DNA of 64,000 nucleotides, taken from contig NC_088712.1 in the NCBI RefSeq assembly GCF_963576615.1, positions 53,487,114 to 53,551,113 of the forward strand, given 5' to 3'. The notes under the pieces were generated by a model. It was not told the origin of the DNA. It saw only the letters and a list, made by a program, of their open reading frames with translations, and did not search any database. Shown piece by piece: positions 6,940 through 39,008 of this stretch (position 1 is its first letter; the number at the start of each line of letters is the position of its first letter). A program made the position numbers and the translations under genes. This DNA is from Watersipora subatra. Taxonomy: Eukaryota; Bryozoa; Gymnolaemata; Cheilostomatida; Watersiporidae.

Positions 6940-7035
6940 ATGGATGACTGGCTGGTTGTGATCTCACTCTCGGTGGCAATGCTTGTTGGTTGCTATTTGG
7001 CTGGATGCATTCCCTTGGCCTTTTCTTTTTCAGAG
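6940..7035 (+). CDS. SLC39A9: ZIP9 exon 1 (membrane segment 1)
   Basis: Thirty-two codons from ATG to the donor GAG|GTGAGA, ending in phase 0 with PLAFSFSE. This reproduces the conserved ZIP9 N-terminus and first transmembrane segment. Confidence 0.95.
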
Positions 7036-10000
7036 GTGAGACCATTGATAGTTGTCCTTGGCCTGATTTTCTAGGGATGAAATAGTAAAAATCTTTTTTT
7101 TAAATCATAAATATTCTTTTCTTTCAGTCTGTTGCAATAATAAGAAAATATAAAACCAAATTATTGGTTTTGTTTTAATACCTTGTTAGTTTCCTTTAGT
7201 TCTTAAAACTTATTGTGATTTTTAATATAATAGAGACCATTTTTTTCAATAGAAAGTCATGTTAGTTTGCAACCATGGCAACACAGTATTTCACAGTGAT
7301 TATCTTTTCAAGGTGGTGTGCTCACTCCTTAGGGTCATGTGAATACTCCTTAAAGAATGATTATAGCAAAAGGTCTACATACGCATATAAAAAATAGACT
7401 GAAATTCTTTATGGTATACAAAATTTTAAAGATATATTTGGTTGATTTTACTGGAAAAAGTAAACATTTTACTAAACCTTGATTTTAGCTGTTGTGTGCA
7501 TGGGCCTTAACTGTCATTACATTCATTCCTTGAAGCTTGTTTTTAAAAAATAAGCCACAAAATGTGGTGCATTTTATGAGTAGCCTGTGCGTCATATATC
7601 GCCAAACCGTACAAGTGTCATGAGTAGCCTGTGCGTCGTATATCGCCAAACCGTACAAGTGTCATGTGTAGCCTGTGCGTCCTATATCGCCAAACCGTAC
7701 AAGTGTCATGGGTAGCCTGTGCATCGTATATCGCCAAACCGTACAAGTGTTAGTTATCTAAACGCTGAGACTAGATGCCAAAGTAAAATTCACCATAGGA
7801 ATGTTATTTACATGGTAAATCTTTACCATGCTACGAAATCTACTTGGAAGTCTTAAAACTCGCCCAGGTGTTTCACTGCCCCTTTCTCTTCCTCTCTCTC
7901 TCTCCCCCTCTTTCTCTCCCCCCCCCCTTCTTTCTCTTCCCCTCTCTTTCTCCCCCTCTCTCTCCCCCTCTCTCTCCCCCCTCTCTCTCTCCCCTTTTCT
8001 CTCTCCCTCTCTTTCACCCTCTCTCTCACCCCCTCTCTCCTCCTCTGTCTCTCCCCCTCTCTTTCTTTTTCTTCTCTCTTTCTGTCGCTCCTCTCTCTTT
8101 CTCTCGCACCTCTCTCTTTCTCTCGCACCTCTCTCTTTATCTCCTTCCTCTTTATCTCCTCCTTCTTTCTCTCTATGTACAGAGGCTGTAGAGTATATAT
8201 TGCCTCATCTGACGTTCCATGTTCAACCGTTCCTCAATTTTTTTACGAGTATCCAATTGCATACAACATACAGGTTAGTACTTGCCTTTAGCGAGTAGAA
8301 TTCTGTAAAATGTTCATAGATTTGTCTTATATTTTAAACAGTTTTAGTAGAACTTCTTCGAAGGTCTAGACATTGTTTGTTATCTAAAGTAATGAAAATG
8401 ACTCGATGCTATTGCACATATTATCACACTAACCTTAGGTTTGCCTAAAACTTTTCGAACAATTTGAAGGTAGGCGTGAAAGAGACACTACTTATGTGAT
8501 TCGTTGTCTAAGCAACTAGTACAGCAATTCTATATACGTTTTCATCTCCAAACCTCTACGACTGATGAGGGCAATCTCACACCCCCTGGTTTAGAGCTAA
8601 ACAAAAAGGGTTCAAAACATAATAAAAAACAGATATATTCAGAATATATGAAAACAACATGTTACGTATTGGAAGGTCATTCTAAGAAGAGTCTAACATG
8701 TTTAACTGGCAGCAACATAAAAAACAGCTCATTTCATGATCTTTAACTTTTTTTGCCTCTTCTCTGATATTATCTGATTGAAATGTGGTTTCTTGTGGGC
8801 AAGTGAAACGCACATATTATTTTCAAGATTGATGGCATTACGATATTTATTTTTGATCTATAAAAGAGAGGAAAGTCAGGCAGGTTGTTGCGACGATAAA
8901 TACACTTTTTTCATCCTCACGATTGATTTCTGCACCCCCGCCAACGACATCGCACACCCTTAATCAGGAAGCCTTGAACTAGTAACTACTATGTGTTAAA
9001 GCTGATGCTTAAAATATTACTTATTCAATATTATAATAGCCTGCAGATTTCTTTTTCAGTGAGCCGATGTAACTAATTCTAAAAGCTAAAATATTTTGTT
9101 TTCGTTAGTAAGTGGTATATGACTATTTACACAGGACAAGCTTAAGCTGCTGACAATATTTGGAGCTGGCCTGCTAGTTGGTACAGCATTAGCTATTATC
9201 ATACCCGAAGGGATAAATGCCATCTATTCTGATATCACTCCTCATACGCATTCTAAGCATGGAGGTACGTTGACTTACATCACTCCTTATACACATTCTA
9301 AGCATGGAGGTACATTGACTTACATCACTCCTTATACGCATTCTAAGCATGGAGGTACGTTAACTTACATCACTCCTCATACACATTCTAAGCATGGAGG
9401 TACATTGACTTACATCACTCCTTATACACATTCTAAGCATGGAGGTACATTGACTTACATCACTCCTTATACACATTCTAAGCATGGAGGTACATTGACT
9501 TACATCACTCCTTTTACGCATTCTAAGCATGGAGGTACGTTAACTTACATCACTCCTTATGAACATTCTAAGCATGGAGGTACATTGACTTACATCACTC
9601 CTTATACACGTTCTATGCATGGAGGTACATTGACTTACATCACTCCTCATACACATTCTAAGCACGGAGGTACATTGACTGACATCACTCCTTATACACA
9701 TTCTAAGCATGGAGGTACATTGACTTACATCACTCCTTATATACATTCTAAGCATGGAGGTACATTGACTTACATCACTCCTTGTACGCATTCTAAGCAT
9801 GGAGGTACATTGACTTATATCACTCCTTATACACATTCTAAGCATGGAGGTACATTGACTTACATCACTCCTTATACACATTCTAAGCATGGAGGTATGT
9901 TGACTTACATCACTCCTTATACACATTCTAAGCATGGAGGTACATTGACTTACATCACTCCTTATATACATTCTAAGCATGGAGGTACATTGACTTACAT

Positions 10001-13000
10001 CACTCCTTATACGCATTCTAAGCATGGAGGTACATTGACTTATATCACTCCTTATACACATTCTAAGCATGGAGGTACATTGACTTACATCACTCCTTAT
10101 ACGCATTCTAAGCATGGAGGTACATTGACTTATATCACTCCTTATACACATTCTAAGCATGGAGGTACATTGACTTACATCACTCCTTATACGCATTCTA
10201 AGCATGGAGGTACATTGACTTATATCACTCCTTATACACATTCTAAGCATGGAGGTACATTGACTTACATCACTCCTTATACACATTCTAAGCATGGAGG
10301 TACATTGACTTACATCACTCCTTATACGCATTCTAAGCATGGAGGTACATTGACTTACATGGTGCACTATATGCTTTCATGCCGAGGAATAATAGTTAAT
10401 GAATTGCCGCAATAAATTAAATCCAGTGGTGTGCGAAGTATTTTAGACTTTGTTGTTTGGGTTTGCGATAAATTTTTTCCTCATCTTTTTTTCACATTCC
10501 ATGGTTATTTTTTTCGAGTATATTTTTCAGCCCCTCGTGAACCTCTCTCTAGTGACATGGATATCATTGATACCTTTTAGTTATCTGATAAATTAAAGAC
10601 TCGGCAACTGATGGTCTTGTGTATGCCACTAATAGGTTTTACGGATTTCTTAATTTTAAACCATGATTTGGAGTTGCACTGCTTCATGAGAAAACAATTT
10701 ACATGCAAACAAAGTATTTTTGACTTATTTGTTTTTAAGTACTGATTAAAAGATAATTTAAATTTTATTCGTTTTAGGCCTAAAAATATTTGTCAATCCT
10801 GTTTGAGTTTCCTAGAAATATCTCTCCATTCTGTTTCCTTTCCCTAGAAATATTTCTCCGTTCTGCTTGGCTTCCCTAGAAATATTTCTCCGTTCTGTTT
10901 GGCTTCCCTAGAAATATTTCTCGTTCTGATTGGCTTCCGTAGGAATATTTTTTCATTCTGATTGGCTTCTCTAAGAACATTTCTCCATTCGGATTCGTTT
11001 CCATAGAAATATTTCTCCATTCTGAGTCATTTTTATATAAATATTTTTCGATTCTGATTGGTTTCCTTCCCTATTAATAATTCTCTTTTCTGATCGGCTA
11101 TCCTAGGAATATTTCTCCATTCTTATTGAATACTTGAGTTGTACAATAGCATTAATTACAGAGTTACATTTTGACTAACAGTATGATTTCTATGAAAGGT
11201 CTTCTCTGCAGTTATTTATCATGCATTGTTGCTGCTAATTTTAATTTGTTCGGTAATAACAGCCCCTTGATACTATTACTTACTATATTTCTATATATAG
11301 TAATATATATGTTATTTCTCTTATATCTACATTTCTTTTTTTTCAGTCAATTTTATTTTCCTGTGCTTCGTTTTTTGCATTGTTAGAGTTTTTCACCTTT
11401 TCACAATAAAGGTCATAGCTAGCTGAAAAACTGATTTCCAGAGCTAGTCTTTTGGACAATGTGGTTTTCCCCAAATTGATGCAGCTTGTCTTATGGATCT
11501 GCCCAGTTACACAGTTAATTGAAATCGGAAATCGCTTCCTCTTTTGTCAGAAGTCAAGGTGATTCTCTGGTTTTTTCACCAAACCCGACTATTGGTTAAT
11601 CAGCGTTGTATAAGATTCCATCTACTTCAATTACTGGTCACTTTGTTGTCTTCTGGCAGAGTCACGTTCTGTCATGAATGTTAGCTGGTCAGGTTGGTAA
11701 TCGAGCACAAGATTTCATTCCTCATCTTTTCTTGCAGCTCAATTATATGTAACGCTTATTTAGACTCCATGGGACTAAAGTTTACTTAAGAAATCTAAAC
11801 TTGCTCTCACAATGCCATTCGCTTGAGAGAACCTTCATTAGTTCTGTCTCGCTAACACACATCGATGTGTCCATCTAACCTAGTTTGTGACACCACTTGT
11901 TTTCATCGTATGTCTGTTGCTGTTATAGTCTGGAGGTAAGGCTGTGTGGCATGTTGGAAGAATCCAACAGTAAAACTTTGATAGTAAACATACACTATGT
12001 TTCCATTGCGCGGAAGATGCGGTTTTGGAGTTGTGCACACTTTGAGCTACCCTGTGATAAGTGTGTCAATGGGCATTAGCATGTTGTGGGTTAACGTGGG
12101 TGCTTTGTTAAACGAGATGAGGAATTTTATGCCAGAGGTCGTGGCGGTGCACACCTGTCTCGCTTAGCAATGCACTTTTAAAATAGTCATTACTCAAGTT
12201 TGAAAAATGTTTAAAATGGAATACCTGTGTGCGGCATTTTCTTGTGTATCATTCGCAAGTGCCGGTTCCATCTTTTGCAAACATGAAAAATTCGATAAAA
12301 AATAGTAACAAAACTTACAGGTTTTTGCCGTTTCCATCTCGTGGATGACCCAAACTTGCGGATTAATCGCATCAGGAAATAGCGATTGAGAGGAGCTGAC
12401 TGGATATAGGGAAGTGAGGCTGGATGGTATACCATGTATAATTTAGACCAAGCACTTTAACAAACTGTGAATAGAGAGATGTGGTTTAATGGTGAGGGCC
12501 TGTATCAACTGTAAAATATTCTGGGCGAATATTGTACCATTGAATTCCCTAGATGCGGAGTTTTTCAATTTAGGGTCATCCCAGTTCGACTATTGTACTG
12601 GTTCCCCATTTATATGTCATGCTTTTGCATTTACAGCAGAGGAAGTAGAGATCGCTTTGCCACCAGTAGAAACCGTTGTCAACCGAAAACTGCGGCAGTT
12701 GGCTAAATCAGATGATCTGCCAGCTGTGGCAAAGGCACCAGTTTCTAAGCTACATGATGAGCCAGTGAACCATGAACATAAGGGGCATGATGATCACCTT
12801 GAACTTGATAAAAAGCAGGGGGAGCATCACCATGGGGAAGAGCACAAGTCTATAGGAGTATCCCTTGTAGCCGGTTTTGTGTTCATGCTTGTTATAGACC
12901 AGATAGGAGGAGGCCACTCCCACGGCTCAGGTGCTGCTGGTATGTTTGTTAATAGCTGTTCCTTCTACATTTGCTGTTTTTAGAAATTTCAGTCATGCTT

Positions 13001-16000
13001 TTGGAGAATATGGCGGGGATTAATCACTGGGATCATGTTGTATTCAGAGCAATCTACTGTCTGTTCACAATTACCTTTTACTTTAGAATGGCTCGATAGT
13101 TTTGTTTTGTACAAGTCTTGCATTCCCATATCTTCACATTGAATATTCACAAGGAATGGAGTGCTTTGAATACTCTGCGTGCATCAATAAACTTTGTTTC
13201 TATAGATTTCATATCTACATGTAGGAGCGATCTTGTGGCTAATAGGACAACTTGGCTATTGGATTGGTCAATGTTAGTGGAGACCCAGTTATATGTTTAG
13301 TAATTTTCAATAGAGTTATTATCATGGAAATTTATAATAGTTGGTGAAACACTAAATCTGCTCACTATAGGGTTGGAAAAGGAAAGATTTTTAGAAAAAA
13401 TTAGATTTTTATTTGAATCGATTTTTTTGAAATTCGATTTGAATTGGATTCCTTTTTCCATTTCTGCTCATGCAAATTGTCTGTGAATTGTATCGCGCAT
13501 CAAAATTTTGGTGAAGTCACTTTTCAGTGTTAGTGACTCACACGCTTTAGTTTGACTACTTCTTACATTTCTTGCATTCATCCACCATATAAAATTATAA
13601 TGTGCAAACTACATGTAAGTTAGTGGAGTAGAGCTGCTAGCAATTTTACACATAGTGCGAATAAAAGCCAAAGGCATAAAAAACAATGAAATATTTGAGC
13701 ACATTATTTCCTTGATTTGATCGATACAGTTGATCATAGAAAGTATAAATACCAGCTTGCCGGTTTTATAGTACTGGTCCAGTTTTTGATTTTCGGTTGT
13801 AGCTGGTTGGTTTGTAGATCTTGTCTAAAGGTTGGTACGCACTATATCGCAGTACATCGGCTGTAATTACACAATACTTCTGTGATTGTTTGTGATAACG
13901 TTGTTCACATTATCACAAACCTATCCGCGTCTATTCAATTATTCTAATTATACAATGCAGTCGCTGAAATGATGACACACTAGTCTCCGTAGTAACTATT
14001 ATGATGGGAAATATAGATCATGCAACACAAACGTGACACCCAATCACAAATGTCAAAGCATGCACATTGCACAGACTGTCATGAAGCACTTTAAAGTATT
14101 GGAAAAATTTGACAGCTGCAATGTTTTCCGACATATCTGTGTTGCCTCGATGATGTCATTGGTTTGCAGGGTGCATAGTGTATGAATAATCACTGAGAAG
14201 ACAACTCCGATATACTATGATAGAATGCGTACCTACCTGCCTTTAAGATGGTTATCAAAACCCTCATTATTGTGTGGAGTCGCTTTGTTTCAAAATGAGC
14301 TAAATAATTTGCCATAAATGGCCTAACGTGGTTTGTTAACTGTTAGCATCATAACATGGCTTTATTTACAACTATTTACAACTAGTTAAAAAATCGAGTT
14401 CTTTGTGGGTTTTCTATCGAATTTCTTGATGTTCTGACCACATGGTACGTGAAATTGTTGAACAAATTGACAGAAAATGGCAGTTCGGCTGCAGAGACCT
14501 CCAGTAGTGTCTTCCCAATAACATGACCGCCATGCCTGGGCTAACATTGTTTCCATATGATTGGCTCGATGCTTATAGCAAGTCTCGGTAAATGCTAGAC
14601 TGCAGTTTACCATCTCTCTAGAGTCTAGACAGCTGTCAACTGTATCTAGCTAAGCTTTGAATGATCCCAGTCTAGTTACAGCTGTCACATATGTATGACG
14701 CAAACAGTTGTCATCCATGGCTGAATAAATTCTACCTTAGAACATATTAGAACATGGATTTTAGAACCTGAGCTTGAAACAAACGATAAATGCTAGTAAA
14801 GAGTTTAGCTTTATAATAATGTCCTTTTATTGTTGTCTGAGGAGAAAGCAGTAGAATTTATACTACTGAGTCCATCGATTATTTATAGATTCGGAGTCCA
14901 ATGGTGTCCATCATTCAAGAAATAAAGTAACTGCCACTCTTGGTCTATGCGTGCACGCAGCAGGTATATACATGTAGTTTTACTATAATCTTTGGATTAT
15001 ACTTGTTGTACGAAACTTTTTAAGAGTTTAGCATATAATTAACAGCAAGCCTGACGATGCCCGTAATTTTTTTATTATCAATCAGATGCCCGTAGGTGGG
15101 TGGTGCTCAGGAACCAGATGGAGTTTTAAAATCAAACATTTTTAGCAACCTGGCGGTAGGCACGGAGCACAGGCATTTGAAGTTTTAATGGAATCGACCA
15201 AAAAATAGCCAAACGCGAACTAGCGGACACGCACACTGACATAATGGGATTTATTAATATAAATTAACATAGTCTGGTCCTTCCCTCAACTCGTTAGTTT
15301 TTTAATTTGTTAGCTGGCAACAAGAACTCTTGAATAGTCAGAAAAAATGATTTTCTTATGTCCTCATTTTGTGGAGTCGCTTTGTTTCAAAACGAACTAT
15401 ATTTTAACTTTTCTTTGTTTTCATTTCAATTTTTTTGCATCTTCACTTATATGAAATTTTAAAAAATTAGTGAATTTCAAGCTTCATAACTGAAAATGCC
15501 TTTGGGGATTGAAAATTGGTGAGTCGCGGCAATTGTAAGCAAAGGCTTGAAGATAGTTGGTAGTATACTTACACTGTAAGTCACCTAATCAAAGATTTCA
15601 ACTTGCACGACTTGCTCTTCAGGATGCTGTTTTTACAGCTTTTGTAGTGTGTACTTTTCAAATGTTTGTGTTGTCTATACTAGCACCTTAGAGATCTTCA
15701 GAGTACCTGAGAGATATTTACAAACTATTGCCTTGTATATTCATATTTATCATAGCTATAAAACTGCATAACATTTTGATGACTTTCTCATCTATAGCCT
15801 TATTTCTTGCAGCTGATGGTATAGCTCTAGGGGCTGCGACTAGCGTCTCACACACTGGTCTCACTGTCGTGGTATTTGTAGCAATAATGTTACATAAGGT
15901 TGGTATTATGCTCATTTTATCGTTTGACGCTAGGCAATTTTTCAGCCAGTAAATACTTCAACTTCTAAAATTCATTTAAACTTGCTTGTCAGTGACTTAT

Positions 16001-17928
16001 TAGACCGCATTTCAAGAAGCACCTGGTGAGGAGTGTCATTTTCATAAAAGACTATCATGTTGTTCTACACCAGTGCGAAAATTCATTGCTATCATGTTCT
16101 CTTGTCATTTTTATACAGGAACGTTTCCTAATTTTTTTATGAGTAACATTTCTGTCTTTTCATAAATAAATATATTTTAAATAATACTACAGTCTGTAAA
16201 TTAATTGTCACTATTTATAGCCTTTTGTCCTGTCATCACTGCGGTGATGACTTGTATTGTCATTGCTCAATTGTTGGTCATAATAGTAGTAATAATAATA
16301 TTATTAGTAGGCATACGCTTATTGACATAATTAAAAGTTAGTTTCTAATTGAATGATGCAGGTGAGTTTGTTTCGAAGTTACATTCTGATAAAATAAAGA
16401 TAATATGATAAAAAATAACATCAAATGTCCCTCAAAGCAATCTGTAGAAAGTGTTAAGATTTTGGGCCAAACTTGTTTGGCCATTTTGCATTGTTATGTT
16501 GTTATAATTTAGGCTCCTGCGGCATTTGGCCTCGTCTCATTTCTATTGCATGATGGACTAGATAGAGGACGAATAAGAAAGCACCTTCTTCTATTCTCAG
16601 CTGCTGCGCCTATAGGAGCCATCATTACTTTTGCGGTATTGAACCATGTGAGTAGCGTGATGACTGATCATTTCCTAGTTTTTTAGTAGAGACAATCCCT
16701 GACTCCTCTTAATCTTAGTCTACTAATATCCATCATTTTAGTTTCCTTAGTTCTATAGTGTACCAGCATTCAGAAGGTCGACGCTCGCCATTTCTTTCAT
16801 TTTTAACACAAATTCCTTCATGACAAAAAATCTATGAACACGTATATTGAGCGCAATTGTCCTCAGTGCATGGGAAGACGAATTCTGAAGTTTCTAATCA
16901 GATAGATTGGGGCACATTTATACGAAAAATGAAAGTTCTAAGATTGCTGATTGAGACCAGCATTGGTTAAGTAGGACTGTTTTTGCACATTATAGAAGGC
17001 GTAGTGAGTCTGTTCTTATAATCCTTCCATCACTTGTTAATGTCACGAAATATCACTCTTATTACGCGCAAGATTATTCTTCAACTTCTGAATGCGTTTG
17101 GGCGGCACAAGTGCTAGACTGTCGGTTTCCCAATTTAGAGTTTCAAAGGTTTCAGACTCGTAGAAAGCAGTATTTTATAAAGCACTTTAATTTCCCCCAT
17201 ATCATTTCTTCAGTGCAACGATTTCATGCAAGATTACAAAGCGAGAGTGTTATAATATAAAATATATTATTGATCATCCTCATTCTCTAACTTACCTAGT
17301 GATGACGAACTTCTGTGTTGTTAATCAGAATCCCTGATAGCATGTGATCCTACAATGGTGTTAGGGTAAATTCCTTGTTTACTCTGTATGCAGATCGCAT
17401 CTGTTTTGCAAAATTGTACTCTGCAATTCTTAGACATAAAGTTGGTAGTACACGGATGAGTAAGTTTTTTTTAAAAACAGTTCTTGTAGAGAAATAAACA
17501 ACTGCATGGTGATTGACAATTTATAAACATGTCATGAGTTAGTCTTATAGTTTTTTGTATTGTAAGTTTCATTGTTTCTGCTATCGTGTTGATAAAAACT
17601 TGCCTCTATCGTTTCAAGCCATTACTCCATCCTTAAAATCTTTTCTCATATCTCATTCCTGTTTTATGCATTGTAGCAAAGCAAGGAGGCTTTGGCATAC
17701 TACAACGCGACAGGCATCGCAATGCTCTTTAGCGCTGGTACATTCCTCTACGTGGCCACTGTTCACATATTGCCTGAGGTCTCTAGCAAGACGAGTCGCA
17801 CTACGGCCAGTGACGGTAGTGTGATCGTACGGGAACATAAGGGCTTCACTAAACTGGAGCTTTTGGCAATAATTATAGGCTCACTGCTGCCTGTAGGTAT
17901 ATCACTCGGGCACGGTCATAGTCATTGA
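6940..17928 (+). CDS. SLC39A9: Zinc transporter ZIP9 (SLC39A9), seven coding exons
   Basis: Plus-strand gene with exons 6940-7035, 9135-9264 (or a later donor), 12637-12939, 14889-14963, 15813-15898, 16513-16647 and 17677-17928. Intron phases are 0,1,1,1,0,0, and every junction has GT/AG. The shortest isoform is 358 residues, against about 307 in vertebrate ZIP9; the excess lies in the His-rich loop between membrane segments 2 and 3. Hallmarks in order: N-terminal MDDW...[11 protein letters not shown], membrane segment 2 with [11 protein letters not shown], a His-rich loop, [53 protein letters not shown], and [20 protein letters not shown]. The HxxxD and HK motifs form the metal-binding centre in this family. 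ZIP9 moves Zn2+ from Golgi lumen or outside into the cytosol; in vertebrates it is also reported as a membrane androgen receptor. The start is supported by the upstream in-frame TGA at 6913 and by homology from residue 1. Confidence 0.95.
7576..7750. repeat. 44-nt tandem repeat, four copies
   Basis: Four head-to-tail units starting at 7576, 7620, 7664 and 7708, each with the core TATATCGCCAAACCGTACAA. They differ at one to three positions. The array lies in ZIP9 intron 1. Confidence 0.9.
7877..8178. repeat. CT-rich (polypyrimidine) low-complexity tract
   Basis: About 300 bp of almost pure pyrimidine built from CTCTCT, CCCC and TTTCTCT runs. Long open frames across it on both strands are composition artefacts. 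Confidence 0.95.
9135..9264 (+). CDS. SLC39A9: ZIP9 exon 2, shortest form (membrane segment 2)
   Basis: Starts after the acceptor ACAG at 9131-9134 and encodes [20 protein letters not shown] and on through [14 protein letters not shown], ending HTHSKHG plus one base at the first donor GGAG|GTACGT. It ends in phase 1, which matches exon 3 exactly. The exon does not meet a stop at this donor: its frame stays open through the whole adjoining minisatellite to the TAA at 10413-10415, so the 3' boundary may lie at any of 25 equivalent donors spaced 45 nt apart. Confidence 0.9.
9220..10363 (+). repeat. 45-nt minisatellite spanning ZIP9 exon 2 end and donor
   Basis: Twenty-five GGAG|GTAC junctions recur at exactly 45-nt intervals, the first with GGAG at 9261-9264 and the last at 10341-10344. 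In the ZIP9 frame each unit encodes [15 protein letters not shown], with sporadic variants (TRSMH, YEH, PCTH, TDIT). The unit consists of the last ~30 nt of exon 2 plus the first ~15 nt of the intron. Since 45 is divisible by three and the unit has no stop, splicing at any unit keeps the frame into exon 3 and adds 15 residues, up to 360. The reverse strand is also open for 275 codons, but that is a by-product of the unit length. Confidence 0.95.
10416..12636 (+). other. ZIP9 intron 2 downstream of the minisatellite
   Basis: Contains a degenerate ~32-nt tandem repeat (listed) and otherwise AT-rich DNA. A minus-strand open frame at 12211-12435 has no recognisable homology. Confidence 0.6.
10785..11130. 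repeat. Degenerate ~32-34-nt tandem repeat
   Basis: About ten diverged units built on CCTAGAAATATTTCTCC followed by GTTCTGTTTGGCTT. Similarity between units falls towards the 3' end, so this is an old array. Confidence 0.85.
12637..12939 (+). CDS. SLC39A9: ZIP9 exon 3 (His-rich luminal loop and membrane segment 3)
   Basis: Follows TTTACAG and starts with CA, which completes an alanine codon with the terminal G of exon 2. It encodes about 70 loop residues with a strong histidine cluster ([19 protein letters not shown]), then the conserved [17 protein letters not shown] segment and [11 protein letters not shown]. The donor is GCTG|GTATGT; an alternative GGCTCAG|GTGCTG nine bases earlier has the same phase. 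The first ~45 loop residues ([16 protein letters not shown]...) have no counterpart in the vertebrate protein as I know it. Confidence 0.93.
12940..14888 (+). other. ZIP9 intron 3
   Basis: Holds an inverted-repeat MITE (13826-14245, listed) and, at 13370-13450, an isolated AT-rich stretch that resembles a decayed transposon end. The 75-codon minus-strand frame at 14386-14613 is not recognised. Confidence 0.6.
13826..14245. mobile_element. MITE with AAAGG(T/C) termini
   Basis: The left end AAAGGTTGGTACGCACTATA and the right end, read inverted, AAAGGCAGGTAGGTACGCAT are imperfect terminal inverted repeats. Related DNA lies in the intron 2 of two Ly6 genes (about 33025-33311 and 40190-41040), sharing ACTATATC, CAATACTTC.G.GATCGTCTGT, and ACAACTCCGA blocks. 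Flanking TAA/TTA suggests a PIF/Harbinger-like 3-bp target, but this is weak. Confidence 0.6.
14889..14963 (+). CDS. SLC39A9: ZIP9 exon 4 (start of membrane segment 4)
   Basis: Lies between TTTATAG and the donor GCAG|GTATAT, phase 1 on both sides. Encodes [20 protein letters not shown] then CVHAA; the histidine is part of the conserved metal-binding HAAAD motif whose last residues are in exon 5. Too short for ordinary ORF detection but an unmistakable match. Confidence 0.93.
15813..15898 (+). CDS. SLC39A9: ZIP9 exon 5 (metal-site segments 4 and 5)
   Basis: Acceptor CTTGCAG, donor AAG|GTTGGT, phase 1 to 0. Encodes [17 protein letters not shown] and then [11 protein letters not shown]. The D and H residues complete the ZIP binuclear metal centre. 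Confidence 0.95.
15899..16512 (+). other. ZIP9 intron 5
   Basis: AT-rich intron with a short imperfect ATA-rich stretch near 16280-16310; no other signal. Confidence 0.7.
16513..16647 (+). CDS. SLC39A9: ZIP9 exon 6 (membrane segments 5 and 6)
   Basis: Acceptor TTTAG, donor CAT|GTGAGT, 45 whole codons. Encodes [20 protein letters not shown], then [20 protein letters not shown], closely matching vertebrate ZIP9. Confidence 0.95.
16648..17676 (+). other. ZIP9 intron 6
   Basis: About 1 kb AT-rich, GTGAGT donor and TTGTAG acceptor; nothing else seen. Confidence 0.7.
17677..17928 (+). CDS. SLC39A9: ZIP9 exon 7, C-terminus
   Basis: Encodes [35 protein letters not shown], a polar loop, then the last membrane segment ending [10 protein letters not shown] and TGA. 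Vertebrate ZIP9 ends in a similar GHxH tail. The 3' UTR follows. Confidence 0.95.
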   Translation, partial: QSKEALAYYNATGIAMLFSAGTFLYVATVHILPEVSSKTSRTTASDGSVIVREHKGFTKLELLAIIIGSLLPVGISLGHGHSH

Positions 17929-26483: not shown

Positions 26484-28247
26484 AGGCCTGTATTCACTGG
26501 TTGCAAGTTGGGGCGGCTAATGTTCGGCGATTAGTTATGAACACCTGGGGGTGTTGAGGGGGTGGTGTAAGCCCCCAACTGGTTTTTCTCATGTAGGGCC
26601 TCAGCCGGGCCTCTCATGTGAAGTTTTTAAAAAATTTATCAGAAAACATCAACATTTTTCTATTTTTTGAGATTGGTTTTGTTTTAGGTAAATGACGAGA
26701 CATTTTAAAATTGACATAGGCAAAATTTGACCGCAGTTAAAACGCTCAGAAAAAAGACATCTTTTTCTTTTGAGCGTTTTAGCAAAGATCAATTTTGCCG
26801 ATTTTATTTTAAGTTCATACGGAGGTTTCCACGCTTTCGGTGGGACATGGCCAAGCAGATGTTTGGTGAAACTTGATATTTTGCAAACCTTTATAAAGGT
26901 CGTTAACAAGAATATTTTGCCACTGATGATGATAATAATGACGCCTAAGAACTACTAAAAGTTGATGTTTGTCTCTATGGCTTGGAATAAAGTGATATTG
27001 AAGTGAATTTTTGCGCTTGCCTTTCATTAATATAGTGACTTACGGCACTTACGATTACTACTAAGTGGGTTCTGGTTACAAGTAGTCTTACACCGAATGA
27101 GTATTAGCTCTCATGCACAACTATAATTGTTGCAAGATGACTCGTGAATGAGTATGGCTCTTTATTTCACAAGCTAAAGCTGCACAGAGATTAATTAATG
27201 TTCAAATAATCCACAAATGTCCATATATAGTAATCCACAAATGTCCATATATAGTAATCCACAAATGTCCATATATAGTAATCCACAAATGTCCATATAT
27301 AATAATCCACAAATGTCCCTATATAATAATCTACAAATGTCCCTATATAGTACTCCACAAATGTCCATATATAGTACTCCACAAATGTCCATATATAGTA
27401 CTCCACAAATGTCCATATATAGTAATCCACAAATGTTCATATATAGTAATCTACAAATGTTCATATATAGTAATCTACAAATGTCCATATATAATAATCT
27501 ACAAATGTCCATATATAATAATCTACAAATGTCCATATATAATAATCCACAAATGTCCATATATAATAATCCACAAATGTCCATATATAATAATCCACAA
27601 ATGTTCATATATAGTAATCCACAAATGTTCATATATAGTAATCCACAAATGTTCATATATAGTAATCCACAAATGTCCATATATAGTAATCCACAAATGT
27701 TCATATATAGTAATCCACAAATGTCCATATATAGTCTCGTCGCTTGTAGACAGTATCTGGTGCTCTGTACTCTTTGTTCTTCCGTCTCACTAGTGTATCT
27801 TCCTTCGTTACTTATTCTTACCCATTCTGGTCTACGATGCTTTACATATCCTTATATACAGTGTTATGTGATAGTCCATTGGCTTTCCATGAAAGCTGGC
27901 TTGCATATTACTATGCTAATCCCATGGTAGCTTGATGCATGTGGCTATTACAAATAGTTGAGTTTAGCAAATCCATCACAATATTCTACAGCGATAAAAA
28001 CCGTCTCCATAGCCATTGGCCAAACAACTTTTCAAATAAATGATGTTGAGGTCGAGTTATCTGAAGCAATTTATCATTGCAAGGGAACGGACCAAACAAA
28101 TCCGTTCGAGTTAACCATGTGTTTGAGATGAAATGTTACATTTTATTCGAGGGCGAGTTATGCGAGTTTGACTGCACTTAGCCACGGAAAGTTCCTAAAA
28201 GTTTGGGACAGCTCAGCCGGCCAGCCGCCCCAGAGAATACGGGCCTG
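26484..28247. mobile_element. Non-autonomous hAT transposon, 1764 bp
   Basis: The left end CAGGCCTGTATTCACTGG and the right end, inverted, CAGGCCCGTATTCTCTGGGG form a terminal inverted repeat, with GGGGCGGCT repeated inside each end. A perfect 8-bp duplication CTTTTGCG flanks it at 26476-26483 and 28248-28255, the hallmark of hAT transposition. No transposase frame is recognisable inside. It contains the 24-nt minisatellite at 27207-27735. Confidence 0.9.
27207..27735. repeat. 24-nt minisatellite, ~22 copies
   Basis: Unit AATCCACAAATGTCCATATA plus TAGT, with variants ATGTTCA, ATAATCTAC and AGTACTCC that occur in runs of neighbouring units, as expected from local duplication. Both strands lack stops in some frames because the unit is divisible by three. 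It lies inside the hAT element. Confidence 0.95.
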
Positions 28248-28372: not shown

Positions 28373-30187
28373 GTGCTCTGGCATAGGCTTATTGATGACT
28401 CAACTAGTGGGCATCCATTGTGAGTTGGTGTTTCCATTAATATAAAAACTGTTACTTCGATAAATCTGCAAGTCATTGTTCAAGCAGGTAAGTTTTAAGG
28501 CAGGTAAAGCGATACCCAATGGTGAAGTCCTTGAAGAATGTCAGCTACTTCATAAAAGTTTGCTCAGGGAGAGTTGGTAAATGCCGACTTTGAAACATTG
28601 ATAAAGGGCTTACCATCAGTGGAGATCATTTCTAGGTAACAAGATCTCATTGTAAAAAGAAGAAAAACTCCTGATGTTTTGTTGAAACTTCCAATTTCTA
28701 CTGTCTGAATGGTAAAACTACCACTACAACTGTTGTAGTGGTTTTTAGCAATTTGTTTGTATCTTCTGGCAAATACCTTGTTATTTACATATTTTTGGGA
28801 CACCTTAAAACAAGCCTAGCTATTGCTCTGTTGCCTAGCCCATTCTTAACATTTGGTCATACTCGAGCAGCATTTTTGTATTATAATAACAATAATATTA
28901 ATAGCAATAATATTAATAACAATACTACTAATAACAATAATATTAATAATATTACATTTATAAAAATAATATTTGTTCAGTGGGCAAGATAATAATGGAA
29001 TTCTATTACAGTAATTAACCATCCACTATAGCAAAGTTGAGAGTGGTTACGACGGCAGGGTTACGCTAGCGCCACCTGCCTGTCTATGTCAGATAAATAA
29101 GCAGATATGCTATGCCTATCATTGTGTGCATGTCTAGCTCTCTGATTACCTTAATTCCATGGTAGACCTAGGCTTGTGTGACAGCAAATTGATGCTAAAA
29201 TTAGTTTTGCCACTGAATGACTTTAAATATTATCTATTTTTCTCAACAGTTAATGCTAGACAAGAACTAGTCAGAGTTTTAATGCTTTCAAATAAATATT
29301 AGAATCAGAAGTTTCTGGTGTAAGGATCAAAGTGTTTAGTAACTACACTCAACAATTCATTTTGATGATCGTCTTTGTTTATGCTTCATCACTGAGCAAC
29401 ACTCGGTTGCTGCAAGTCGGCGAGTGTCGTTGGTCTGCTTAGGGACTGTCTTTTACCAAAGCATTGCGAGTGAGATTATATTTCATCAGCCAAGTCCAAG
29501 CAAAAAATTAAAGGAGACTACTACTAGCGTTTACAATAGATTTTGTTGTGATATAAGGATGTGATGTTCATCATTTTATATAGTGCATCATGACAGTAAT
29601 GAAGCTCAGCAGGCTAATGTGACTCATTGCTGTAAAAACGTCTGCCAATCCATGAGATGGCCATTCAAGTAATATAAGTTGCTATACAATCACTACTTAA
29701 AATTTACTGTTGGGCGAGAAAAGAAATACAATAATAGGAGTTGTGTTCTTTAGACAGGTTTAGGTGACTCCAGAGTTTCTCTGATATGTGAGGTCTCTGA
29801 GTTGACACTATCAACATCAATGATGAGCCCTAAAAAGTCAACTATATCTGACTAAAAGAGGGCTAACATGGTATCATTTTTGATTCAATCAACCTGACTC
29901 ATATTGTCACCTGTTGAGGTCTTCTCACTGACAAAACTAAACACAAAATCATTATTCGAAAAAATACACTGAGAAAGTCATTTAGCGTCTTGACAATGTA
30001 CTGCTGTCAAATATCATCAGCCTTCAGACATCTAAAATGCTTTGATCAAAAGTGTTATAAAGCAGCATATTTGTTAGTTTGTTTACAAAAAATATCAGCT
30101 GTTTCCCAATTAGAGAAGCTTAAGTTATTTTTATTTTGGCTCAATTATCAATAATCAATATTAATAAATCCTACTTTGTAATTGTGC

Positions 30188-30322
30188 ATGTGCATACGTG
30201 TGTGTGCGCGGGTGTGTGCACGCGGGTGTGTTTGCGTGTGTGCACAAGGTGTGTTTGTGTATGTGTGCATGATCGTGTGCGCGTGTGTGTCTGTGCGCGT
30301 GCGTGCGAATGTGTGTCAGTTA
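30188..30322. repeat. GT/GC-rich microsatellite
   Basis: Runs of GTGTGTGCGCG and relatives; shorter counterpart at 38230-38302 in block B. Confidence 0.9.
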
Positions 30323-31768
30323 TTTTGCATAAATAATGTGCGTTTCCACAGTGTTTAGCAAATTTTAACCAAACTCTATACGCACATATACTCTATAGTT
30401 TTTGCCAAGTCACCAAAGATATTTGGCTTCAAAACGCCGTATTCATATGCCATATGAATCTGCCTTCTAAACGCCAACCTGATTGGAAACACAAAAATGC
30501 GCTTTCGCATGCATCAGGGGCAATTGCCTTCAATAAATCCATCATCGATTGCTGTTATGAAAGCAGTCTAGGAATTTGCACCGAAAATCTACAGGCCTAA
30601 TAACAAACACAGACAAAATCTACCGACAAAAGACAAACAAAATCTACCGACAAATAACACTCAAGCTATTACATATGAAATATTGGTTGCTATTTCTGGT
30701 ATAAATATATTTCTAAAATTGACAGACACTTATATTGGCGTGATTACGTACAAGGTTAGTAAGGATAATCTTTACAAAGGATAAAATGGTAGATGTGAAT
30801 AGAAGTGTGTTTCTATTGGGAGGCACTAAACGCTTTTGCTTACTAGATTCATGCAATGAACACACAAGCTTTGCAAAGTTTCTGTGATTATTTTCTACAG
30901 TTATGAAACTTCTATATATACGCAGTGAAAGACAATCCAGATAGAATCAAATATGTACACTTTAACCTATCAAAGTTAAACCAGTTCAACGGTTTGATGT
31001 TTGACGCGTATGCAGTCATAGATCCATTTAACCAATTTTTTTTGTAGTAGTTTACAACCAGCCAATAAAAGGGGTGCTTGCTGAAAACACTTTTGTATAC
31101 CTCTTGGTATATTGGAAAAATATGCTAACACATCAAGTCTGCTTATAGAAAGAGAACGCAATTCCCAATGATGTAACTGATCTAGAGATATTCCACTGTT
31201 TGGAGCCATCAAGATCTTAATTATTATTGGATAGCTGAAAAGCAAACCGGACATTCTAAATAGTAAAAATTAGCTACATACAAGTATTTGTATTCTATTT
31301 TAATTTGTTAAAGCTTCAGTGGTATTTTGATCTTTGTTAACAATAACAGTTAATAAGCAAGTTAACGTTGGCAAGCCAGTATCTTTGCCAATCCAAGCCA
31401 ACCTTTTTCCTTTGGCCAATGCAAATATACTAGACAGAAGACACACTTATAACTTAGGATTTATCCCCTCCTTGTTTGTTGATTGGAGTAAATAAATGTT
31501 CTTACAAGATATTAATTTATGAATAACATGGTAGGAGGCTGCAGGCTTACCATTTTGTAATGTGTCAAAATTTGCTAAAAGCTTCACTTTATGTGGTCAG
31601 GTAATATACTTAAGACTTTGTATGCATAGTTGTTTTTATGTTACTAGGTTACGAATGGTGCAATTCTGGATTCCACAGTTTCATATTTTTAGACTAGTGA
31701 TGACTTGCAAGAAGAAGTTATATCATGTTCATACATGTGTCCACCTAATAAACTCATATCTGGCAGCA

Positions 31769-31828
31769 TATTGGCTGATAGCTGACAGGCTCCGCCCATT
31801 GTGGTTATTAACAGCTACTATTTATAAT
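31769..31828 (+). promoter_or_regulatory. Conserved promoter-like module, copy 1
   Basis: ATTGGCTGATAGCTGACAGG, then CTCCGCCCATTG, then TATTTATAA, in that order on the plus strand: inverted CCAAT box, TGACAG/E-box-like sites, GC box and a TATA-like element. Repeated at 38949, 49266 and 53402 beside other Ly6 copies. It lies just 3' of the Ly6 polyadenylation signal and points antisense into exon 3. Function is inferred only. Confidence 0.35.
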
Positions 31829-31861
31829 CAACTAATTTAATAAAATATTAAACAAGTTTTT

Positions 31862-34800
31862 TTTATTGTTTAGTGAACCTTTTTATGAATTGAGCAAAAC
31901 TGTTTGTTTATAAACAGGATATATGGACTTGAATTGTTCATGCCTTCAATGAAATCATATCGAAAATTGTGCAGTCTTTATATGAACGGAGCTACATGAC
32001 CAAGTAGGAAAGCCAGTATCTAAAAGAGATATTTGGCTACAGCAGCAGCGATGACAAGTCCAGTAGAATATACAGCCTTGTTACTACTGTTGCACAAATC
32101 TCCTGTGCATGAACAGAAGTAGCTGTGGGTTTTGATTCCAAAGACATCGACTTTCACCTTGTTGCTCTCCAGGCAGTTGGTATTGTCATATTCTTGAGCA
32201 CATTTCCGATCAACTACAATGTTAAAATATCTTAGTATACTTAATATATTTAGTTTTTCTATAACAAAGTTATGGTCGAGTAAGTTCTCAGTCTATGAAC
32301 GACAACTTGAGTAAGTCCTCAGTCTATGGACGGCAACCTGAGTAACTCCTCAGTCTATGGACGGCAACCTGAGTAAGTCCTCAGTCTATGGATGGCAACC
32401 TGAGTAACTTCTCAGTCTATGGACGGCAACCTGAGTAACTCCTCAGTCTATGGACGGCAACCTGAGTAACTCCTCAGTCTATGGATGGCAACCTGAGTAA
32501 CTCCTCAGTCTATGGATGGCAACCTGAGTAACTCCTCAGTCTATGGACGGCAACCTGAGTAACTCCTCAGTCTATGGACGGCAACCTGAGTAACTCCTCA
32601 GTCTATGGACGGCAACCTGAGTAACTCCTTAGTCTATGGTCATCAACCTATTGATTAATTATGGAGCTTAGGCTATTGATTTACAATACATTTGATTAGA
32701 CCATAGAGTAGATAGGCATACTAGGTACTGTCCAATTAGTTTTCAGCTAGGATTCACATTCGGATTACGTGACATTCTCCATTTTTATATATGATGAAAA
32801 TTTAACTGCACGACTCAGTGTGTAGCTATGCGTTTTTCTGTTCTCTTGTTACACTGCATTTAAATCGAGTTATCCTAACGGAACGGCCACCTAGACACAC
32901 CCTCCGTTGTTAAATTCCAACCCTTAGTGAGTACCCTTCACTGCTAATACTCAGCAAGAAAGCTATACATGTTCTGCGACCAGCTGCTAGCTTTCTGTAA
33001 ATAGACATAGTTGTCCAAGCCTGGCTGCTGGTTAATCGCTGGTTCACACTATATCACCGCATGTCAGTGTTAACCGTGCAATACTTCGGCGATCGTCTGT
33101 AATAACATTGTTTACACTGTCAAAAAACCATCCACTTTTACATCAGCAAATAGTCCATGGCATAGCGTTTTCATAATACAATGTAGTGGTGGAAATAACG
33201 AAATACTAGTCCCACAGCAATTGTCATGAAAAAAATATAGTCGATGAATAAACACTGAGAGGACAACTCCGAAATGTTGTGATACATTGTGAACCAGCCT
33301 TTAGCGATAACATAAACCAGGATTCATACAACTTTAACTGTTTCATCCAGCCTAGCAGAGCAGCTATCATTTTGCTACACTGATAGCCTGAGCGCAAGTT
33401 CTTTGGAAACCCTTTGATGTAACATGGTTATATTTTTAGTGATCATTAAGGTTTACTCAGCTATCTGTAATAACAGAAGACTTCCATAAGTCTGCCAGTA
33501 AGATGGAAGAGTGAGAGAAGATAAGTACTTATTCCAACTTACTCAGCTATATTACATAATAATAATTATATTAATGATAAAAATAGGCTTTTGTAATACT
33601 TCTATGTCCTTTCAAACCTACGTATGCTTGCTCAAATAATTCTAAGTGCACATTTTTGCTTGCTTGTTACATGAAAAACATCTTAAGAAAATTCAGAATT
33701 TTAACCTACAATGTTGAAATGACCTTGACTAATAGAGAAAACGGGATAGGCTTTATCCATAGATATATATACCTATATATATCCATATATTTATCCATAG
33801 ATATATATATAGGTATATATATCTATGGCTTTATCAGATTTTATTAATGTAGTTTATAACAGGTTAAACGTTAATGTATACCTGTCTCTGACCAACTTCC
33901 TAAAAGCTTGACTCGGATCTTGGCCTTGCTGCAACCACCATCCTCATCCGAAGACAAAAGACTCTGTGAGCAGTCCGTCTCATGGGAACTGCTTACGACA
34001 TAGCCAGTATCACCATCATTACATGAGGTATCAAGGATACTACACTCGTAGCACATGGTGGCCATAGAAACTGCCAGCATGCCTACAACACAAATCAACA
34101 ACAACTATTATAAACACTTGTAGAGGAATAGAATAAAATGATTCACTAATTATCTAGTTTTGATAATATGGATATCCTCTAGTAGAACCCTCTGTGAAAC
34201 AAGAATAGCAGGCTCAGATAATAAATTTTTTCATTTAGTTTAAAGCAATATTTTTTATGACTTTATAAACGCTTCAAACTTTTAAATTGACTATGTGGCA
34301 AAAATGTTTCTAGAATGAAATAGAAGTTGATATTTAAGGAGTATTCTCCAAATAGGTCAAGTTGTAAAACCTTTTCCTGATAACTTTTTAGTACAGCATG
34401 ATTGTCTAATAACATTTATAAATCATACCCAGCTTTACAAAAATAATTATATCTTTGCATCTAAAGATAGTATATTCTTTGGAATATACTAGCTTTACTC
34501 CAAAGAAAATACAAAAATAATTATATATTTGTATCATTATATTTGCATTCCTTATATCTATAATATCCAGTGATATTATTGGATTATTATGTAAAAATGT
34601 TTAGGGTCTCTCATAATTAACCAAGACTTTGTTATATTCTAGTGATGATGATTACATAATATATTATATTTATGCATAGGAATATATAAATAACCTGAAA
34701 GCACGAGAAAGACGTAGAAAGATTTCATGGTGATCAATGAATTGAGATGTTTGATATTGATATTGATGAATTGTTTGAACAACCTAATCAAATCAAGGGC

Positions 34801-34922
34801 TGAACAGTATTAGGTTGACACTTTTTTATATTCTAGTGATGAAGATTATATAAAATATTATATTTATGTTTAGGAGTATGTTACCAACCTGAAAGCACGA
34901 GGAAGGCATAGAACGACTTCAT
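31862..34922 (-). CDS. Ly6/uPAR-like (three-finger) protein, gene 1
   Basis: Minus-strand gene: exon 1 at 34695-34728 or 34889-34922, exon 2 33882-34082, exon 3 32020-32213, both introns phase 1, AATAAA on the minus strand at 31867-31862. The product is 142 residues. It has a signal peptide (MKSFYVFLVLSG..AVSMA), then ten cysteines in Ly6 order starting CYEC and ending YFCSCTGDLCN, then a polar NSSNK and a hydrophobic tail (AVYSTGLVIAAAVAKYLF) typical of GPI attachment. Family members act at the cell surface or as secreted ligands; partner unknown. Two first exons exist: the upstream 34889-34922 gives MKSFYAFLVLS, the inner 34695-34728 gives MKSFYVFLVLS. Confidence 0.85.
32278..32648. repeat. 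31-nt minisatellite in Ly6 gene 1 intron 2, 12 copies
   Basis: Unit GAGTAACTCCTCAGTCTATG plus GACGGCAACCT, with small variants at the ends. The equivalent intron in gene 2 has six copies (39453-39638). No unique spacers, so not CRISPR-like. Confidence 0.95.
33025..33311. mobile_element. MITE relic in gene 1 intron 2
   Basis: Related to 13826-14245: CTGGTTCACACTATATCACC at one side, GAACCAGCCTTTAG at the other, with shared interior blocks. Confidence 0.6.
33757..33828. mobile_element. AT-rich palindromic insertion (~70 bp)
   Basis: CCATAGATATATATACCTA pairs with TAGGTATATATATCTATGG. GGCTTTAT occurs at 33749-33756 and 33827-33834. The matching place in block B (about 41506-41520) reads AGGTTTTTATCAG without the palindrome, i.e. 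an empty site. Confidence 0.7.
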
Positions 34923-35055
34923 GGTAAGTTTTATCCTAAGTTCTCTGCAGCAAGTCTAACCAATTTGAGTAGGAGAGAGAGAGAACTGCCTTGGTCTGTG
35001 ATAACACGAAGTAATGATTCCTGTTACGTTGCCGAGAAAATGCAAAACAGAAAAG

Positions 35056-35095
35056 AATTATAAGCCATAACGACGAGCAACATGATTGTGATTGG
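35056..35095 (-). promoter_or_regulatory. Putative Ly6 gene 1 promoter
   Basis: On the minus strand CCAATCACAAT (35095) is followed 30 bp later by CTTATAATT (about 35063), a CCAAT plus TATA-like pair 140 bp upstream of the outer first exon. The CCAAT box is kept in gene 2 (42575-42571); gene 4 has CCAAT boxes near 56253 and 56270 in a related upstream region. Confidence 0.4.
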
Positions 35096-36361
35096 CTGAT
35101 GCTAGACTTGGCAACAAATTGCTTTGGATACTTTTGTGCTGGGTGATGTAATACATCGATTGAATTCTTCATATAGGTCAGTAACAGAAAATAATATGTG
35201 AAAGACGATTACGCAGTGTTGGAAAGACGGTTATGATGTGGTAAAACTGTAAGCCTCTATGCAAAGGATAAAACAAAGTTTAGTGCGTACGCAAGAGAAA
35301 TTCAAAGAAACTATATTTACAATTATTTTTGTGTTTGTTACGCACAAACTGTAACCTGAACAAAATTTTCAAAATGCTAAAATAAAAGAATCTAAACAAA
35401 TAGTATGTAATATTTTTGTTGTTCAGCAAGCTTATACAGTAAAGATTTGATAGGCTCTTAAATGTAACAGTAAAATGGATCACTGATTTCTCTCGTGTTA
35501 CAAATAATTTTTACCAATTTTGATGTTTTTGTTTCATGACCTAATCTGCTTTAAACAGCATGACTGGTTGTAATAAAGTTCATATCTGTTTATTTCCAAT
35601 TTACAGGCTGACCCTTTTTGTCAGACAATATTGACCCTTGCATAGCAATTAAACACCTGGTTCATTACAGGGTCTGTGTATGAATTTGTAATAGTTTCCT
35701 CAGAGATGACAACTTCTCTTCTTTATATCAATAGTGTTTTGGACATCAAGTAGGAGAAGATCAAAAACATAGAAATATTAAAACGGGCAGGTCTATCATC
35801 CATGACTGACTTCTTTATTGTAAAAAGTCTGAGGTGAGTCATGAACACAGAATAGAACAAGACCATCATCTTAGTCAACTATTACAAGCCAATTAGGTGA
35901 TGTTAAGCAAAATCAAAGAAGGCCTAGAGACCGATATAAAGAGGTAGCTTAGATGAATTTAAGATGGACGCAGATCAATAGATACTCATGACAGACGGAC
36001 TGCTTGTAATTGAGCTGAGTGGAGATCTGCTAACATATGTAGGTTACAGTAACCTACATATGTTAGCAGCATAAGTAGGTCACAAGCGCAGACAGTGCTA
36101 GTCACTTCGACTGACTGAGAGAGAAAATGGGAAAGTATTTGCTATAATACTCCCATTCAGAGGCATATGATAAACCTTTACAGTTTCTCATGAGTTGGAG
36201 AGTTAAGCTGCCATTATGCCTATGGCTGAAATAATTAGCTAACACATATCTCAGACTTGCGCTATGGCGGCACACTCCAACACAAGTTATTGATGCATCG
36301 CACAAACACATAAGTCGACTAATAGGTTGACATCTTTTTGGAGTACTTTTTATTTTCATTA

Positions 36362-36476
36362 CCTCGGCATTAATGACGGATTATCTCAGCATTAATGATG
36401 GATTACATCAGCATTACTAACAGATTACCTCAGCATTAATGATGGATTACCTCAGCACTAATGACGGATTACCTCA
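36362..36476. repeat. 22-nt minisatellite at end of block A, ~5 copies
   Basis: Unit ATTACCTCAGCATTAATGAC plus GG. It ends exactly where block B sequence starts. Confidence 0.9.
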
Positions 36477-38948
36477 GTCACTCAGCTAGTGACCATTCAT
36501 TGTCAGTTGGTGTTTCCATTAAGCTAAAAACTGTTACTTTGCCAAATATTCAAATCAATGTCCATGCAGGTAAGTTTCAATGCAGGTAAAGTGATTCCCA
36601 ATGGCGCAGTCCTTGAAGACTGTCAACTACTCCATAAAAAGTTTGCTCAGGGAGATTTTGTAAAAACTGACCTTGAGACCTTGATAAAAATCTTACCATC
36701 AGTGGATATTATTTCTTGGTAACAAGATCTCATTGTAAAAAGAGGAAATAACTCTTGTCGCTTTGTTAAAATTTCCAATTCCTGCTGTTTGAATGGTAGA
36801 ACTGATAGTTGTAGCACTTTTTAGCAATTTGTATCTTTTGGCAAATACCATGTTATTTACATATTTTTGAACACCTTAAAACAAGCCTAGCTATTGCTCT
36901 GTTGTCTAGCCCATTCTTAACATTTGGTCAGACTCGAGCAGTCTTTTTGTATTATAATAACAATAATATTAATAGCAATAATATTAATAACATTATATTA
37001 ATAATAATAATATTTGTTCAGTGGGCAAAATAATAATGGAGTTCTATTACAGTAATTAACCATCCACTATAGCAAAGTTGAGAGTGGTTACAACGGTAGG
37101 GTTACGCTAGCACCACCTGCCTGTCTATGTCAGATAAATAAGCAGATATTATATGCCTATCATTGTGTGCATGTCTAGCTCTCTGATTAGCTTAATTCCA
37201 TGGTAGACCTAGGCTTGTGTGACAGCAAATTGATGCTAAAATTAGTTTTGCCACTGAATGACTTTAAATATTATCTATTTTTCTCAACAGTTAATGCTAG
37301 ACAAGAACTAGTCAGAGTTTTAATGCTTTCAAATAAATATTAGAATCAGAAGTCTCTGGTGTAAGGATCAAGGTGTTTAGTAACTACACTCAACAATTCA
37401 TTTTGATGATCGTCTTTGTTTATGCTTCATCACTGAGCAACACTCGGTTGCTGCAAGTCGGTGAGTGTCGTTGGTCTGCTTAGGGACTGTCTTTTACCAA
37501 AGCATTTCGAGTGTGATTATATTTTATTTTTTGCCAGCCAAGTCTAAGCAAAAAATTAAAGGAGATGAGTACTAGCATTTACAATAGATTTTGTTGTGAT
37601 ATATGGATGATATTCATTATTTTATATAGTGCATCATGACAGTAATGAAGCTCAGCAGGCTAATGTGACTCGGTGCTGTTCAAAAATCTGCCAATCCATG
37701 AGATGGCCATTCAAGTAATAAAAGTTGCTATACAATCACTACTTAAAATTTACTAAGTTGGGCGAGAAAAGAAATACAATAATAGGAGTTGTGTTCTTTA
37801 GACAGGGTTAGGTGACTCCCCAGTTTATCTGATATGCGAGGTCTCAGAGTTGACACTATCAACGTCAATAACGTGCCACCAGAAGTCAACTATATGTCTA
37901 TATCTGACTAAAAGAGGGCTAAAATGGTATCAGTTTTACTTCGATCAACCTGACTCATATTGTCACCTGTTGGGTTCTTCTCACTGACAAAATTAAAGAC
38001 AAAATCGCTAGTTGATAAAATACACCAGAAAGGTCATTTAGCGTCGTGGCAATGTACTGCTGACCAGTATCCTCAGCCTTGACACATCTGAAACATTTTA
38101 ATCAAATGTGTAATAAAGCAGTATATTTGTTAGTTTGTTTACAAAAATTATCAGCTTAGTTTCTCAATCAGACATGCTTAGTTACTTTCATTTTGGCTTT
38201 GCTATCGCTATTAATAGTTCTTACTTTGCTGCGTGTGTGTGCGTGTGTGTGCGCGTGTATCTGTGCGCATGCGTTTGCTTGTGCGTGTGTGTCAGTTATT
38301 TTGCATAAATGATGTGCGTTTCCACAGATTTTGGCGATTTTTATCTAAACTTCATACACACATATATTCTATGCTTTTTGCCAAGTCACTAAAGACATTT
38401 GGTTTCAAAGCGCGATATGGTTCCTGAGAATAAACCTCCTAAACATCCACCTGAGTAGAAACGCAAAAATGCACCTCGCACGCATTGAGGACAAATGCCT
38501 TCAATAAATCCATCATCGATTGCTGTTATGAAGGTAATGTAAGTGTTTGCACTGAAAATCTACAGACGAACCAACTTTCAACCTTCTTCCTTTGGTCAAT
38601 GCAAATGTACTAGACAGTAGACACACTCATAACTTAGGATTTATCCCCTCCTTGTTTGTTGATTGGAGTAAATAAATGTTCTTACAAGATATTAATTCAT
38701 TAATAACATGGTAGGAGGCTGCAGGCTTACCATTTTGTAATGTGTCAAAATTTGCTAAAAGCTTCACTTTATGTGGTCAGGTAATATACTTAAGACTTTG
38801 TATGCATAGTTGTTTTTATGTTACTAGGTTACGAATGGTGCAATTCTGGATTCCACAGTTTCATATTTTTAGACTAGCGATGACTTGCAAGAAGAAGTTA
38901 TATCATGTTCATACATGTGTCCACCTAATAAACTCATATCTGGCAGCA

Positions 38949-39008
38949 TATTGGCTGACAGCTGACAGGCTCCGCCTGTTGCGGTTATTAACTGCTACTA
39001 TTTATAAT
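38949..39008 (+). promoter_or_regulatory. Conserved promoter-like module, copy 2
   Basis: Same order of ATTGG, TGACAGCTGACAGG, CTCCGCC and TATTTATAA as at 31769, here beside Ly6 gene 2. Confidence 0.35.

Follow-up and report, generated by a model that had tools for sequence, protein, structure and literature searches.

Human IFI6 (6-16, G1P3) carries a minisatellite whose 12-nt unit closes exon 2 and adds four residues. This array was reportedly described by Turri, Cuin and Porter in 1995 (NAR 23:1854). In passages of an article citing Turri et al. (PMC4526556), two downstream repeat units act as splice donors, giving rise to three mRNA species. A second human case, the variable number tandem repeat (VNTR) in ABCA7 intron 18, is described in PMC5954066: its 25-bp unit, present in 23.7 reference copies and varying in array length among people, has the exon 18 donor as its first two bases. 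Retention of one unit accounts for about 2 ± 1% of ABCA7 transcripts, breaks the frame, is prone to decay and stays constant with array length, and skipping of the next exon rises as the array lengthens (PMC5954066). Here, we analysed a 64,000-nt stretch of the bryozoan Watersipora subatra (contig NC_088712.1, positions 53,487,114 to 53,551,113; the whole stretch is referred to as the window), in which a ZIP9-like zinc transporter gene carries, from the 3' end of exon 2 onwards, 25 tandem copies of a 45-bp unit. Judged by its sequence, this array belongs beside those of IFI6 and ABCA7 as a splice-donor minisatellite, and its first copy is likely the main donor.

Tandem Repeats Finder placed one array at the end of exon 2 (9234-10360, period 45, 25.0 copies, 94% matches, 0% indels), and the full units occupy 9234-10358 on the + strand. 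A previous sequence-only reading of this DNA had set the array's start at 9220; the 25.0-copy array is real, but starts at 9234 and thus takes in the last 31 nt of exon 2. Each unit comprises 31 nt of exon end and 14 nt of intron start, and GGAG|GT is preserved in all 25 units at exact 45-nt spacing, with donors from 9265 to 10345, all in phase 1. The single shared phase follows from a unit length divisible by three, and intact GGAG|GT in every copy is unsurprising, since only 13 of the 45 positions vary. As in IFI6, the unit repeats a splice donor and, as in the passages on ABCA7 (PMC5954066), it includes the donor of the preceding exon.

By sequence, the 25 copies fall into 13 types, and the 15 distinct changes among them are distributed through the array. 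Assemblies often get the size of tandem arrays wrong, but this internal diversity, together with the presence of other minisatellites in the same window, leaves an artefact in copy number, or in the array as a whole, hardly credible, even if the count may still be off. Copy similarity at lags 1-10 did not exceed that of shuffles (lowest P 0.18), giving no sign of higher-order structure; a 90-bp super-unit, seen by eye in copies 18-23, found no overall support in this lag test and was discarded. Elsewhere in the window, nothing resembled the unit beyond matches 11-14 bases long, none of them with an E below 0.27. Its exact 20-base core was absent from viral and prokaryotic genome collections, where pieces of the ZIP9 protein gave 21 and 181 pattern matches, none of them confirmed by tblastn; being non-eukaryotic, these collections are silent on the conservation of either.

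Every donor choice preserves the reading frame. With the copy-1 donor taken, exon 2 spans 9135-9264 on the + strand (130 nt) and ends in phase 1, and exon 3 (12637-12939, + strand, 303 nt, phase 1 at both ends) opens with CA, completing the split codon G|CA (Ala). Joining each donor to exon 3 by script yielded a single open frame in 25 of 25 cases, encoding 358 to 718 residues, and no copy contains a stop codon in the array frame. The sequence-only reading was thus right that 25 donors recur at exact 45-nt spacing, that all are in phase 1 with exon 3 completing the codon, and that any choice leaves ZIP9 in frame with 0 to 24 extra units. In the passages on ABCA7 (PMC5954066), by contrast, copy 2 of the 25-nt unit breaks the frame, whereas the ZIP9 unit, containing 31 nt of exon, preserves it. 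Beyond the array, the frame stays open through unique sequence (10359-10415, + strand) until a TAA at 10413-10415, so that a transcript using none of the array donors would encode a truncated protein. Three additional phase-1 GTs occur between the exon 2 start and this stop: two arose from point changes within the array (9610, 9784) and one lies upstream of it (9181). An intra-array intron, or recursive splicing, was rejected by inspection (unscored): the unit has AG at two places, of which the first would break the frame and the second is without a pyrimidine tract.

Unlike both human arrays, the ZIP9 array mixes stronger and weaker donors. Intron position +5 is a G in four copies (1, 3, 7 and 15) and an A in the other 21, which read GTACAT. 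With a human donor matrix, the GTACGT donors of copies 1, 3 and 7 (9265-9270, 9355-9360 and 9535-9540, all + strand) scored 8.23 bits and the GTATGT donor of copy 15 (9895-9900, + strand) reached the top score in the array with 8.59 bits. The remaining 21, down to copy 25 (10345-10350, + strand, isoform of 718 aa), scored 4.42 bits, below all five other donors of the gene model (5.82-9.83 bits). Duplex energies with the U1 end pointed in the same direction, albeit with small differences (−6.5 kcal/mol for GTACGT copies, −6.9 for copy 15 and −5.7 for GTACAT copies). Among the 596 non-array GT dinucleotides between roughly 7000 and 18000 (real donors included), 44 reached 4.42 bits and 12 reached 8.23 bits.

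This pattern makes it likely that copy 1 (GAG|GTACGT) serves as the main donor, that the array is mostly intron, and that copies 3, 7 and 15 are the likeliest sources of minor in-frame isoforms. The passages on ABCA7, where use of the second-unit donor gives a minor product, lend support to copy 1 (PMC5954066). In the proposed history, a 45-bp segment straddling the exon 2/intron 2 junction would have been tandemly duplicated and amplified to 25 copies, the first copy remaining the exon end and retaining the stronger donor. As a single change separates GTATGT of copy 15 from GTACGT, but two separate it from GTACAT, GTACGT is probably ancestral; GTACAT would then probably have arisen by loss of the CpG and multiplied along the array (the CpG observed/expected ratio of the window is 0.57). 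Most downstream copies carry +5A and should accordingly be weaker donors. The spliceosome would most likely use copy 1 in most transcripts, and copies 2-25 would leave with intron 2. Occasional use of the +5G copies 3, 7 and 15 would add 30, 90 or 210 residues (isoforms of 388, 448 and 568 aa) to the ZIP9 loop that follows membrane helix 2. Because 45 is a multiple of three and the unit is stop-free in frame, mis-selection costs no frame; such frame-safe errors may let the array be tolerated and drift in length.

Alternatively, the array might be mainly exon, a late copy acting as the regular donor and the second loop of ZIP9 being extended by a long repeat domain that might form stacked beta-strands. 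The frame is open through the entire array, as this would demand, but from copy 16 to copy 25 every donor is the weak GTACAT. The 15 distinct inter-copy changes (5 synonymous, 10 non-synonymous) likewise reveal no depletion of non-synonymous ones, the synonymous share of 33% comparing with a neutral expectation of 26-33%; at an omega of 0.2 (transition bias 4), five or fewer synonymous changes would have a probability of 0.005. Counted by copy, synonymous differences are commoner (19 of 32) because variants common to several copies are mostly synonymous, and these counts are not independent events. Hence, we saw no sign of strong protein-level constraint on the unit, moderate constraint (omega 0.5) being compatible with its sequence.

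AlphaFold2 predicted, for the read-through frame (one sequence), a regular model with one strand per unit (mean predicted local distance difference test score (pLDDT) 65.4, predicted template modelling score (pTM) 0.65). The control, a frame on the opposite strand that covers most of the array, gave helices and no such model (pLDDT 39.9, pTM 0.18). We set the beta-solenoid-like model aside as evidence of a domain, given its low confidence and the reported tendency of AlphaFold2 to build confident but unrealistic beta-solenoids from perfect repeats (PMC11795689). That the control did not adopt the solenoid shape counts mildly against this dismissal. A similarity of the read-through frame to a phage tail-fibre model (E 0.019) was below the cut-off and was taken as chance. 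On balance, a mainly exonic array appears quite improbable.

Several observations nevertheless weigh against copy 1 as the main donor of a mostly intronic array. To start with, the synonymous test has low power at an omega of 0.5 (P 0.21). Copy 15 outscores copy 1, and copy 1 has a 16% chance of falling among the four +5G copies; it fits a regular donor in both phase and +5G, but its phase is shared by all 24 other copies. The exon 4 donor, CAG|GTATAT, is likewise without +5G, and the U1 duplex of the exon 3 donor (−5.3 kcal/mol) is weaker than that of the GTACAT copies, which should thus be regarded as poor but possible donors. RNA accessibility favours no copy, the predicted chance of being unpaired being very low for the 25 array donors and the five others. 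Finally, according to passages of a DOK7 study, position and bound proteins, SRSF1 among them, also influence the choice between competing donors; as the intron-proximal donor preferred there was at the same time the stronger of the two, no position preference between equal donors is demonstrated in these passages.

The sequence-only reading had envisaged a ladder of protein lengths that follows copy-number change. In a full version of it, many or all of the 25 donors would be used appreciably, and each allele would make ZIP9 proteins lengthened by 0 to 24 units of 15 residues, in proportions that shift with copy number. Such a ladder is possible from the geometry: all 25 choices are in frame, GGAG|GT is intact throughout, three downstream donors equal or better copy 1, and IFI6, in the passages cited, uses two downstream units to produce three mRNA species (PMC4526556). 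However, an intact GGAG|GT means little where so few positions have changed, 21 of 25 copies lack +5G, and strong protein-level constraint was not seen. Moreover, the human precedents, as far as the passages describe them, use just two extra donors (IFI6) or one (ABCA7), and one-unit retention in ABCA7 is constant with array length (PMC5954066). The geometry and the absence of frame damage therefore stand, while use of all 25 donors is weakened (4.42 vs 8.23 bits), and we consider the full ladder unlikely.

A bolder and rather unlikely reading is that the array is unstable and makes the loop length of a membrane transporter vary in frame-safe 15-residue steps, within a cell through choice among +5G donors and among individuals through copy number; the spread of the weak-donor unit would then tune down the longer forms. 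In any case, 25 near-identical, frame-safe donors differing mainly at +5 and in acceptor distance offer a ready test of donor strength versus position. Use of several copies would tie the instability of a minisatellite directly to the length of a protein, whereas exclusive use of copy 1 would show how an exon end stays defined beside 24 look-alike donors.

The array might also act otherwise. In passages of PMC5954066, longer ABCA7 arrays go with downstream exon skipping and lower expression. By analogy, exon 3 skipping could increase, or output fall, as the ZIP9 array lengthens, the extra donors being minor; omission of the 303-nt, phase 1 to phase 1 exon would keep the frame, but at the loss of a stretch that aligns with human ZIP9 and corresponds to its third membrane helix. 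Such an effect is very improbable as the chief consequence of the array.

To gauge how surprising the array is, we fixed the first 33 bases of the unit and drew the last 12 at random with window composition, whereupon the unit was stop-free in 75% of trials. Multiplied by an assumed probability of one in three that three divides the unit length, this renders frame safety roughly a one-in-four accident. Eight minisatellites with periods of 22-45 bp and at least four copies cover 5.5% of the window, and random placement of eight such units spanned at least one of 12 ZIP9 junctions in 4.4% of trials; a donor-spanning minisatellite is here, in itself, not very unlikely. Selection against harmful arrays would, in addition, favour those that keep the frame.

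Boundary minisatellites are also known from human segmental-duplication genes, for which passages of PMC2812944 report variable internal tandem repeats at exon-intron boundaries (on average 30-bp units, four times) and count 27 manually inspected intron modifications, emphasizing novel introns formed from repeats. As at ZIP9, such repeats change gene structure and can yield alternative transcripts, whereas a serial donor array is described in none of these passages (PMC2812944). The ZIP9 unit further departs from that of IFI6 in its 45-nt length and unrelated gene, with use of downstream copies being predicted only. The array had been called unusual, which holds for the gene and the 45-nt frame-preserving unit, both new here; the kind itself, a minisatellite amplifying a donor, is known from human IFI6 and ABCA7, and frame safety is no rarity. 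Among the matches listed from the open-access literature, no title or start of an abstract names a ZIP9 donor array.

The host gene was rebuilt as a seven-exon model on the + strand, with a single open frame of 358 aa, GT-AG borders at all six internal introns and compatible exon phases. The coding part of exon 1 (6940-7035) ends in phase 0 at the donor GAG|GTGAGA, and exons 2 and 3, given above, are followed by exons 4 (14889-14963), 5 (15813-15898), 6 (16513-16647) and 7 (17677-17928). The 358-aa protein matches the Zip profile PF02535 (E 6.2e-41; residues 6-350, profile positions 3-322 of 323); among solved structures, it matched only BbZIP, and weakly (E 0.027). A human ZIP9 probe detected exons 1, 2, 5, 6 and 7 by tblastn at 51-70% identity. 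Exon 3 aligned at 31% identity (E 8e-7), with the alignment starting upstream of the exon, and short exon 4 gave a weak match (E 0.13). With human ZIP9 as the only probe among ZIP paralogues, we refer to the gene as ZIP9-like. Its exon 3 acceptor, TTTACAG|CAG, is of the NAGNAG form (12634-12639, TTTACAGCAG); splicing at the second AG would keep the frame and cost the protein one residue. At 16636, an alternative donor for exon 6 scored 1.11 bits; it is no part of the gene model. Rfam (gathering threshold) and ARAGORN (bacterial settings) returned nothing in the window.

Further minisatellites reside in intron 1 (7576-7750, 44 bp × 4.0) and intron 2 (10779-11128, about 32 bp × 10.9), making the gene minisatellite-rich on both sides of exon 2. 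Elsewhere in the window, collinear duplicated pieces (28418-36477 and 36500-43929, where 36500 is the edge of the compared stretch) are 78-92% identical and 7-8 kb apart, and carry two minisatellites whose copy number differs strongly between the halves: a 31-bp unit is present 11.7 vs 5.8 times and a 22-bp unit 5.5 vs 32.2 times. Minisatellites in this genome thus change length, and the ZIP9 array probably does so too. At 27207-27735, a 22.0-copy, 24-bp minisatellite has long open frames on both strands, indicating that open frames come cheap in arrays whose unit is a multiple of three. A degenerate AG-rich tract of 670 bp (47323-47992) likewise has long open frames on both strands. Lastly, a 168-aa open frame with cysteine-histidine motifs (61312-61818) gave no Pfam match above cut-offs, but resembles a retrotransposon gag protein.

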